Virus record (IMG/VR): IMGVR_UViG_3300019890_000013
Coordinates: 1 to 37,480 of that record
Reading direction: 5' to 3' (one strand)
DNA: 37,480 bases
DNA from: a virus
Position numbers and translations under genes: made by a program. The notes under the pieces were generated by a model that had not been told where the DNA came from, made no database searches, and worked only from the letters and a program-made list of their open reading frames with translations. Positions 31,451 to 34,500 of this stretch are shown piece by piece (position 1 is the stretch's first letter; each line of letters begins with the position of its first letter).

Positions 31451-32335
31451 ATGGCGTTAAAGGCTAGAAAACCAATTGTAAAAGAAACAAGATTCAAAGC
31501 TGTTGTGTATGCTAACAGAGGTGTGGGTAAAACGCATTTATGCTGCTCCTTTCCAAATACTTACTTCATAGACAGCGAAGGGCTTAGTTGCCATCCCCAT
31601 TTTGTAGACATGCTTATTAAAAACAATAGCGATCTTGCACGTATCAACGAACTATCAGAGATTATCGCGGAAGTTAAAACATTGTTGTCCACTAAGCATG
31701 ATTACAAAACATTAGTGATAGATTCTATTACCTTCCCCTTTCACTTGTTATCAAACTTTGAAGCTGAACGTCTGGCAAAGAAATCTAAGATAGATTCAGA
31801 GGGTACAGAGTTTGGCGCAAATATGGCTAAAGCTAAACGACAAGTATTTGAGCTTGGTATGTTGTTAAGCCGTCTTGATATGAACGTGATCGTAACTGCA
31901 CATGAAAAAACAAAATATACTGATGGTAAAGAGCTGGGTAAAATGTCAGATGTGAATGACAAAATAGAGTATGCGCTTGGTAGTGTTATCAATCTAAAGT
32001 TAATTGGTAATGATGTAAAAGCATTCATAGAAAAGTCTAGATATACTCAGCTTCAACGCAATGAATTCATTGATTTTAACAACGGTTATGAGATACTTTG
32101 CGACAAATTGGGCAAGCAAGTATTTACCAAAGAATCCATAGCAGAAACATTAGCAACAAAGGAACAGTTAGAGGAAGCCAGACGATTAATAAAAGTATTG
32201 TCTGTGCCTGAGGAGTGGTTAAACAAAAAGATTGCATCTTGTCGAGCATCATCTGTTGATCAACTATCAGAAAAAGATATGCAGGAATTAATTAATTTGA
32301 TGTTAAACCGTCTTAATGAAAAGGAAGCCAGCTAA
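31451..32335 (+). CDS. Sak4-type RecA-like ATPase (AAA_24)
   Basis: GAGGTGTCAC precedes ATG 31451. The 294-residue protein has Walker A ANRGVGKTH (21-29), Walker B YKTLVIDSIT (D91), a sensor-like MNVIVTAHEK (H151) and a late basic/aromatic part. This is the layout of AAA_24 proteins including Sak4, a phage single-strand annealing recombinase that works with an SSB. The next gene encodes an SSB-like protein, which supports the recombination role. The genes overlap by one base. Confidence 0.8.
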   Translation: MALKARKPIVKETRFKAVVYANRGVGKTHLCCSFPNTYFIDSEGLSCHPHFVDMLIKNNSDLARINELSEIIAEVKTLLSTKHDYKTLVIDSITFPFHLLSNFEAERLAKKSKIDSEGTEFGANMAKAKRQVFELGMLLSRLDMNVIVTAHEKTKYTDGKELGKMSDVNDKIEYALGSVINLKLIGNDVKAFIEKSRYTQLQRNEFIDFNNGYEILCDKLGKQVFTKESIAETLATKEQLEEARRLIKVLSVPEEWLNKKIASCRASSVDQLSEKDMQELINLMLNRLNEKEAS

Positions 32336-32826
32336 TGTTTGATTATACAGTGATGACAAAAGACCAAGCAGAAATAGCCAGATATTCTTTGATGGAGAAA
32401 GGAAGATATAAGGCTGTTATAAAAAAGCAAGAATCAAAAACATCAAAGAGTGGAAACCCAATGATGGAGGTTATATTAGAGGTTTACGATAACAGCGGCG
32501 ATATTCATCAAGTAAAAGATTATTGGGTGTTCTCTAAAAAGATGATGTGGAAAGTCATCCATAGTATGGAGGCTTGTGGTTTGTTGAAAGAATATGAAAA
32601 TAAAACATTTCAGCCATACATGGTTGAGGAAAAGTGTGTAGATGTTATGGTTGGCATACAAAAAGGCCAGGAAATACCTTTTGATAAACTAGGCGATAGA
32701 CCGCTAGGAAGTTGCTACCCAGATAAGAATTGTATCGATGATTATGTGGTTGATGTAAATGTTAAACCTGCATCATCTATGCCGTTAAATGCAGTAGATA
32801 AATTCAACGATGATATTCCATTTTAA
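32335..32826 (+). CDS. SSB-like protein (DUF669-type)
   Basis: The 163-residue product has a beta-barrel-like core (GRYKAVIKKQESKTSKSGNP then MMEVILEVYDNSG) of the kind found in DUF669 and related phage ssDNA-binding proteins. Its last residues are FNDDIPF, almost exactly the acidic C-terminal tip of bacterial SSB (DDDIPF), the docking tail for host repair and replication enzymes. Together with the adjacent Sak4-type ATPase it forms a recombination module. Confidence 0.8.
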   Translation: MFDYTVMTKDQAEIARYSLMEKGRYKAVIKKQESKTSKSGNPMMEVILEVYDNSGDIHQVKDYWVFSKKMMWKVIHSMEACGLLKEYENKTFQPYMVEEKCVDVMVGIQKGQEIPFDKLGDRPLGSCYPDKNCIDDYVVDVNVKPASSMPLNAVDKFNDDIPF

Positions 32827-33327: not shown

Positions 33328-33391
33328 TTACCGTACGGTAACATTACGAGTGTTATTGTACATTTGTGTGCCATTTGTTACCGAGCGGTAA
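33328..33391. promoter_or_regulatory. Paired palindromic operators TTACCG-NN-CGGTAA
   Basis: TTACCGTACGGTAA (33328-33341) and TTACCGAGCGGTAA (33378-33391) share the same half-site and have centres exactly 50 bp apart. Extended, both read ATTACCG-NN-CGGTAACA, but in opposite orientation. Such a pair suggests cooperative binding or a loop by a dimeric regulator. Confidence 0.75.
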
Positions 33392-33562: not shown

Positions 33563-33928
33563 ATGAAGTTAAAAGATGTAATCGAGCTTGTTAATTTATT
33601 ACAAGACCATCCTGTAATGGGATCTTTGAAAACAAAAGAAGATGGAAGATACGTAATAGCTAGGACTTACACTGCGGGTGTTTTTGCGGGCGAATTACAA
33701 TCGCGTAATGGCAGAGAAGTTGTATTTCATAATGCCAGAAGATTGTGGAAATGGTCTGGCGCTGCTTCATTATCTCAATTATGCATGGAAGGCGTAAAAG
33801 ATCCTGATAACTGCATGTTTCCATGTGAGGTTGACAGAGTTGAGTTATTAGAAGTTGTAGAGATTTTGGATGTTACTGACAAAGCTAAAAAAATTATTAA
33901 AGGTATAAAAATATGGGAAAACAAATAA
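33563..33928 (+). CDS. DUF6948-like protein, 121 aa
   Basis: The centre reads VIARTYTAGVFAGELQSRNG followed by REVVFHNARRLWKWSGAASL and SQLCMEGVKDPDNC. The pattern RTYSAGV-x2-G-L-x-SR-x-G-KEV, then NARR(I/L)W-x-W-GAASL is what I know as DUF6948, found in phages and mobile elements with no known function. The C-terminus has I/V strands ending KIIKGIKIW. It overlaps by 16 bp the gene for the Gly-alternating peptide, so the two are probably coupled. Confidence 0.75.
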   Translation: MKLKDVIELVNLLQDHPVMGSLKTKEDGRYVIARTYTAGVFAGELQSRNGREVVFHNARRLWKWSGAASLSQLCMEGVKDPDNCMFPCEVDRVELLEVVEILDVTDKAKKIIKGIKIWENK

Positions 33929-34092
33929 TAGCTGACGGTTCTGGTTCTGGTTCTGGTGACGGTGACGGTTCTGGTTACGGTTCTGGTTACGGTGACGGTT
34001 ACGGTGACGGTTACGGTTACGGTGACGGTTACGGTTACGGTGACGGTTACGGTTACGGTTCCGGTTACGGTTACGGTGAAGGTTACGGTTAA
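33913..34092 (+). CDS. Alternating-glycine repeat peptide (GX)n, 59 aa
   Basis: ATG 33913 lies inside the end of the DUF6948-like gene with AGGT eight bases before it. After MGKQIIAD the rest alternates strictly Gly-X for about 25 units, where X is Tyr (12), Asp (6), Ser (6) or Glu (1). The DNA is a tandem hexamer array (GGTTAC, GGTGAC, GGTTCT), yet no unit breaks frame and the array ends in TAA. Such (GY/GD/GS)n sequences resemble low-complexity, phase-separating or structural glycine proteins. Its function is unknown. Confidence 0.7.
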   Translation: MGKQIIADGSGSGSGDGDGSGYGSGYGDGYGDGYGYGDGYGYGDGYGYGSGYGYGEGYG

Positions 34093-34119: not shown

Positions 34120-34500
34120 ATGAGTGAAGAATTAAAAGCATGTCCATTTTGCGAGGGTGGAGCAGAACTAAATGACGATGAAGAATATTATACGTTTGGG
34201 TGTGAAAATTCGAAATGTATAGCTTATTGCCTAAAATTCACATATTGGTTTGATGATTTAGATGAAGTTCAAAAGAAATGGAATATCAGACCTATTGAAG
34301 ATGCAAGCATTCCAGAATCTATTTTTGTTAATCGAATTTCGCATATTTTATTAGATGAAGGATTAACTAACGACATGAAGATTCACTTAATAAAGTTGAG
34401 GTATAGAATCATGGCTTTTCCAGAGGTTGAGGTTACGGAAACAGAACAATCCGCTTTAGACTTTGTCTATAGAAGACAAAATGCACCAACTGAAAGTTAA
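34120..34500 (+). CDS. Lar-family restriction alleviation protein
   Basis: The opening EELKACPFCEGGAELN, the C-x4-C pair at CENSKC and the later EVQKKWNIRP fit Lar-type proteins (CPFCGG, then a CxxC-like pair, then A-x2-WN-x-R). Known Lar/Ral proteins modulate type I restriction to protect phage DNA. Here the family core (about 60 residues) is followed by a helical C-terminal extension of about 65 residues (FVNRISHILLDEGLTNDMKI). ATG 34120 follows GAGGTTGAG. Confidence 0.75.
   Translation: MSEELKACPFCEGGAELNDDEEYYTFGCENSKCIAYCLKFTYWFDDLDEVQKKWNIRPIEDASIPESIFVNRISHILLDEGLTNDMKIHLIKLRYRIMAFPEVEVTETEQSALDFVYRRQNAPTES

Follow-up and report, generated by a model that had tools for sequence, protein, structure and literature searches.

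Phage genes of the family DUF6948 (PF22253) form a near-obligate pair with a second gene, directly behind and usually overlapping, whose product is an alternating (Gly-X)n chain, here termed GX. The pair was followed up from one window, the whole stretch of DNA analysed, an IMG/VR virus record 37,480 bases long. The reading we favour, at a probability of about one half, is a two-gene module in which an Sm-like barrel is cotranslated with an acidic, Tyr-rich and probably disordered partner that acts as a trans-supplied, Hfq-like tail. No function is assigned to the DUF6948 family in Pfam, its pairing with a (GX)n gene is absent from the literature searched, and the pair seems not to have been named before.

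In the window, the GX gene is an open reading frame for 59 amino acids on the plus strand (33913..34092), which reads MGKQIIAD followed by GSGSGSGDGDGSGYGSGYGDGYGDGYGYGDGYGYGDGYGYGSGYGYGEGYG and ends at a TAA stop codon. Strict Gly-X alternation extends over 51 residues (33937-34089), comprising 25 pairs and a last Gly, with Tyr at 12 of the X positions, Ser at six, Asp at six and Glu at one. At the DNA level this is a plus-strand array of GGT-(TAC/GAC/TCT/TCC/GAA) hexamers, 25 units plus the last Gly codon (33937..34089), which TRF detects with period 6 at 33955-34091 (score 183) and also calls with period 30 (score 197), the top-scoring repeat of the whole window. The array has a G+C content of 55%, against 37.5% for the genome. 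The original prediction of a 59-residue (Gly-X)n peptide, with X drawn from Tyr, Asp, Ser and Glu, in frame to a proper stop and overlapping a DUF6948-like gene, is thus borne out in each of its parts, the overlap measuring 16 nt and the upstream product matching PF22253 with an E-value of 5.6e-30 (103.8 bits, above the cut-off of 27). The GX peptide also scores against two other Pfam models, TrAA12-like (21.8 bits, cut-off 30.9) and sulphur globule protein (SGP; 10.8 bits, cut-off 26.7), but both are low-complexity matches under the cut-off, and both identities were set aside. The open reading frame is not a product of chance, because unrelated phages carry the same kind of frame in the same place.

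The association was examined from both sides. IMG/VR was scanned for twelve GGN-KMN units, (GGNKMN)12, giving at least 120 contigs, and most matches were short (Gly-[Tyr/Ser/Asp])n frames with a short leader, often starting ME. A filter demanding at least two of Tyr, Ser and Asp removed unrelated Gly-Ser, Gly-Asp and Gly-Glu runs (e.g. L037, L044, L062, L096). The upstream frame of each GX frame was taken regardless of its nature; where it was readable, it was a DUF6948-type gene in 62 of 70 cases, all 62 belonging to one BLAST cluster. Five of the eight exceptions lie on a single contig (L050). Of the other three, L048 is an Asp-rich run that passed the filter, L076 lies at a contig edge, and L117 is a GX gene that follows another GX gene. 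For the reverse test, loci were fetched through the DUF6948 sequence alone, with up to 80 viral loci examined per scan out of 510 confirmed DUF6948 viral contigs; the collection search used a closer subset of DUF6948 proteins, since the first alignment was too diverse. In the subfamily of the window, a GX frame lies directly downstream in 79/79 viral loci uncut by a contig end, and in 47/52 loci on bacterial and archaeal genome contigs. Three other query subfamilies give 77/78, 2/2 and 57/59. Pooled, a GX frame comes next in 262 of 270 loci by script and in about 268 after inspection, a total in which some loci are near-duplicates, so that not all 270 are independent. The higher count holds because arrays were found by eye among the script misses (L224, L242, L263, L287, L381 and L397), L242 having a short array with a C-terminal domain and L263 an array at the contig edge. 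Two loci were left with no confirmed array, L272 and the degenerate or broken L260.

Carriers of the pair include Pectobacterium phages of the Ymer genus, Dickeya phage Setonix, Iodobacter phage phiPLPE, Vibrio IKEMa6-1 and Chlorobiaceae CV-1-33, as well as a Monoglobus plasmid, in which it lies near SSB and RusA genes. In all, it is present in hundreds of phage contigs, in contigs binned with many bacterial phyla and in a few archaeal MAGs, and members of the DUF6948 superfamily may be as little as about 15-25% identical to the protein of the window. The search of other phage genomes for a DUF6948 gene followed by a (GX)n frame, proposed with the original prediction, therefore finds a nearly universal association. 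Stops or frameshifts in related copies, named there as grounds for rejecting it, did not occur, the sole cut array among those inspected by eye being that of L381, where an in-frame stop falls part-way.

The two reading frames are tied together by their overlap. In the window, the GX start lies inside the end of the DUF6948 gene (33563..33928, plus strand, 121 amino acids), with a coding overlap of 16 nt (33913..33928, plus strand). Overlaps fall into classes. In this subfamily, 78 of 116 loci overlap by 13 nt and 11 by 16 nt; a second subfamily has a single-nucleotide overlap (TGATG) in 35/73 loci, and overlaps of 14, 8, 17 or 11 nt occur in a third. Where the overlap is 13 or 16 nt, the GX start codon is formed around the TGG of a Trp close to the C-terminal end of DUF6948. 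Of the GX starts, 44% have a Shine-Dalgarno-like 4-mer in front of them, against 9% of upstream control positions, and one contig (L027) has the DUF6948 gene and the array fused in frame as a single protein. From the overlaps, the Shine-Dalgarno-like motifs and this fusion we infer that the two products are made at a constant ratio and share a complex.

The usual neighbourhood of the pair, as read from gene content, is the module of single-strand annealing and early replication. Upstream in the window are genes for a Sak4-like ATPase (31451..32335, plus strand; Pfam AAA_24 4e-17, PHROG Sak4-like 9e-20) and a DUF669-type single-strand DNA binding protein (32335..32826, plus strand; Pfam DUF669 7e-6, PHROG SSB 2e-8), and next downstream is a gene for a Lar-like restriction alleviation protein (34120..34500, plus strand; Pfam Lar_restr_allev 6e-8). 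Across loci, the neighbour families recognised most often are Sak4-type AAA_24, YqaJ, VRR-NUC, RecT, SSB, Gp157, ERF and DUF669. This setting bears on the idea that GX is a surface or virion adhesive polymer of silk-like beta structure, with the glycines on one face and DUF6948 as its anchor or assembly factor. Strict alternation and the Gly, Ser and Tyr content do resemble silk repeats, and Ymer-genus phages have the pair between genes for tail fibres and membrane proteins. An adhesive is nevertheless very unlikely, given that the neighbours in most loci are SSB, Sak4, RecT/Erf and YqaJ, that GX leaders are short with no resemblance to secretion signals seen, and that the Asp content is high and the order not fixed. 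On the 5' side of the pair, an inverted repeat, GTACGGTAACATTACGAGTGTTATTGTAC, at window positions 33333-33361 is listed as terminator-like, with two more TTACCGNNCGGTAA palindromes near it; it is a possible operator or terminator.

Composition separates the protein from its DNA. Over loci ranging from 25 to 80% G+C, the X positions hold 30-44% Tyr, 23-34% Ser and 23-25% Asp, while X codons ending in C go from 27% to 98%. Residues that stay constant while third bases track the genome imply selection on the protein. The glycines tell the same way. In 6,880 Gly slots that have Gly slots on both sides, with the modal codon of each array as its own reference, the first, second and third codon positions show 101, 74 and 389 single-base differences, so that changes away from glycine occur at roughly a fifth of the neutral ratio, although slippage can copy a variant and these counts are therefore not independent events. 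Judged by codon and residue usage, the GX frame, its glycine spacing and its Tyr/Ser/Asp alphabet are maintained by selection on the protein. The alphabet also differs between subfamilies: X in the DRGW subfamily of DUF6948 is 50% Tyr, 20% Asp, 16% Asn and 6% Ser, whereas other subfamilies have 34-42% Ser, which suggests co-adaptation with DUF6948 but could reflect shared descent.

These results weigh against a DNA-level element, in which the repeat would be an attachment site or a recombination or replication site and its translation incidental. Exactly this has been speculated for one of the arrays: a (KMGCCG)35 repeat of 210 bp at 46,046-46,255 of phiPLPE was suspected of being an attachment site (PMC3391216). 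Its coordinates coincide with the GX frame behind the DUF6948 gene phiPLPE_84 (EU876853.1, L130), making the two the same object, which the account of the repeat in PMC3391216 treats as GC-rich DNA, with neither the coding frame nor the partner noted there. The many recombination genes among the neighbours would suit such an element, as would the glycine codons of A+T-rich loci (G+C below 42%), of which 75% are GGC in the arrays as opposed to 21% in the other frames of the same loci. However, the GX frame is bound to the DUF6948 stop through fixed overlaps and preceded by Shine-Dalgarno-like motifs, synonymous positions, unlike residues, track genome composition, there is resistance to non-synonymous change in the Gly slots, and arrays occur in phages with no sign of a common DNA sequence (the window has GGT where others have GGC). 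Rather than conservation of the DNA independent of reading frame, as would mark an attachment site, frame, residues and codons favour coding. A DNA-level element is thus distinctly improbable, and for phiPLPE itself the coding evidence speaks against a purely DNA-level role and challenges the earlier attachment-site reading. The phiPLPE frame (EU876853.1, 46,046-46,255) is unannotated, and a terminator-like hairpin with a T run follows it. The window, with GGT, is an exception to the GGC excess in A+T-rich arrays. Elsewhere in the open-access literature searched, DUF6948 is never mentioned, GX peptide strings occur only in unrelated papers, work on phage low-complexity hexamer repeats holds nothing on a GX peptide, and the Ymer-genus paper does not mention glycine.

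While the alphabet is kept, the number and order of units change very fast, in six-base steps. To illustrate, the Pectobacterium phages Ymer, Abuela and Amona are identical in the 3' part of DUF6948 and in the downstream DNA, yet the GX protein has 73 residues in Ymer and Abuela and 67 in Amona, with Tyr, Ser and Asp reordered. Among 101 pairs of loci with at least 90% identical upstream DNA, the array differs in 76, and in 67 of these the distance between the array start and the stop is either unchanged or altered by a multiple of six bases, the remaining nine leaving a remainder of three; short-read assembly may collapse some arrays, as is likely for L144 versus L145, and exact lengths therefore call for long-read data. 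Hexamer slippage that alters copy number but not frame, as originally proposed, is therefore seen between close relatives, including cultured phages. A diversity-generating retroelement was set aside, since the change is a reshuffling of hexamers and not adenine-directed substitution.

Two further readings take variability as their starting point. GX might be a tolerated, functionless product of slippage, a small frame behind DUF6948 that expands as GGC-rich hexamers slip; array length and order do vary freely, and the L381 array is truncated by a stop. We consider this exceedingly unlikely, as the frame is retained at close to 100% behind DUF6948 proteins down to about 15% identity with that of the window, its residue make-up is constant across genome G+C, and its alphabet is specific to the subfamily (Asn 16% and Ser 6% in DRGW, Ser 34-42% in others). 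Alternatively, GX might be a hypervariable recognition or decoy peptide, in which Tyr, Ser and Asp at alternate positions of an extended chain form a reshufflable binding surface displayed by DUF6948, the rapid change being driven by an arms race with host defence or by a moving host target. Arrays reshuffled between identical flanks, an alphabet restricted to a few contact-making residues and the Lar-like gene next in the window would accord with this. But the changes in order resemble plain hexamer slippage and recombination, and the neighbours elsewhere are recombination genes, not defence or anti-defence genes; we regard recognition, arms race included, as unlikely.

The partner protein is predicted to be an Sm/LSm-like small beta-barrel with N- and C-terminal helices. 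PF22253 is matched individually by 40 of 48 aligned upstream proteins at E<=0.01. An AlphaFold2 model of the window protein, made with 48 homologues in the alignment, reaches a pLDDT of 92.9, and the PDB matches listed by Foldseek are Sm/LSm proteins or chains of spliceosomal or Lsm complexes (best E-value 4e-3). The best 50 PDB rows from VIA-align are also all Sm, LSm or SmAP chains or parts of complexes of that kind, with Z of 7.9-6.7, values below 8 that can reflect a common small-barrel arrangement. A search of a viral library returned DUF6948 proteins and then, lower down, phage proteins named Sm-like. Sequence homology to Sm/LSm proteins was not detected by PDB sequence search (no match), hhalign or Pfam. 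The hhalign probability is 5% against SmAP and 0.5% against Hfq, with approximate reference sequences. Where it aligns DUF6948 with archaeal Sm proteins, the aligned part coincides with the strands forming the Sm1 region, and no Sm2 motif is evident. None of the 48 members matches Pfam LSM or Hfq, and one touches SM-ATX weakly (E=0.0087). Because of the Z scores under 8 and the weak sequence comparison, we term DUF6948 Sm-like and not a member of the Sm family. Its proteins are not uniformly basic (median pI 7.8). The adjacency and overlap of the genes, together with this predicted shape, make it probable that DUF6948 and GX work as one unit in the handling of phage DNA or RNA.

The closest known system is Hfq, an Sm ring with an acidic, disordered tail that imitates nucleic acid and controls binding (PMC5606850) and that, in Acinetobacter, has Gly-rich GGFGGQ repeats (PMC11617691). 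Both combine an Sm-like barrel (predicted here) with a low-complexity chain, acidic and/or Gly-aromatic, for which, in Hfq, repeat redundancy and acidity matter (PMC5606850, PMC11617691). The overall composition of GX, with Asp at about 23% of X and Lys and Arg together at about 0.5%, fits such a chain. Hfq, however, is one protein and DUF6948/GX two overlapping genes; GX has strict alternation, X almost only Tyr, Ser or Asp and a hypervariable array; and the pair belongs to a phage recombination context, with no detectable sequence homology between DUF6948 and Hfq.

Phage and bacterial SSB proteins also consist of a small beta-barrel that binds nucleic acid, a Gly-rich disordered linker and an acidic tip. 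The barrel and Gly-rich disordered chain (again as predicted) are shared with the pair, and SSB genes lie in the same phage modules, but SSB has an OB fold, a single gene and no alternating hypervariable array.

For the tail model itself, we infer mutual binding and function as follows. Synthesised in constant proportion, the two products would bind one another. The barrel, which might assemble into a ring, would handle single-stranded DNA or RNA in the recombination or early module of the phage, and the GX chain, acidic, Tyr-rich and without basic residues, would be its disordered tail, supplied in trans and competing with nucleic acid on the barrel as the acidic C-terminal tail of Hfq does. 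Weak Tyr contacts could possibly hold several complexes together in a sticker-and-spacer manner. Since it is mainly composition and length that would matter for such a tail, slippage could, we propose, reshuffle the array harmlessly; competition and multivalent contacts require composition and length but not order, which fits the features that are conserved and those that vary. A broader version, in which the barrel and its alternating Gly-[Tyr/Ser/Asp] partner, reshuffled by hexamer slippage, form a phage-wide two-gene ribonucleoprotein- or condensate-like system, is offered more tentatively, as a possibility somewhat short of an even chance. If true, such a pair would be a protein diversifier needing no dedicated mutagenic enzyme. 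GX is among the least protein-like sequences preserved by selection, and the pair is a compact natural case in which to ask what a low-complexity chain requires for its work if its composition is retained but its order is not. The DUF6948 family, for its part, gains a partner, a predicted fold and a genomic setting, along with predictions that can be tested.

Variant GX proteins offer a counterpoint to the tail model. Many gut Bacteroidales and Clostridia loci have, in frame behind the array, a conserved domain some 150 residues long with the motif YIDGIPT...FAHGETL...LTGSC..GR (L241:5402-5866 and 22 homologues, alignment A3), which is also present on the GX protein of the Monoglobus plasmid. 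This folded C-terminal domain (AlphaFold2 pLDDT 93) is carried by many gut-phage GX proteins and is unneeded by a plain tail; it has no convincing PDB match, and PHROGs, NCBIfam and Pfam yield no usable name. A second type of C-terminal extension, LHAT..P.KW.GER.WIVAL.G.V, occurs on the GX proteins of L054 and L091, has no Pfam match and presumably resembles DUF7666-type proteins. The GX gene is sometimes duplicated, as implied by L117 and by L161 (3230-3800), where two successive GX frames follow one DUF6948 gene. Finally, L050 (1693-2971) contains a tandem series of five nearly identical GX genes that all differ in their arrays. Each array lies between the leader MGLKAFLKF and the tail EPNLTSAGATVVEE, and the series is preceded by a PcfJ-like gene in place of DUF6948.
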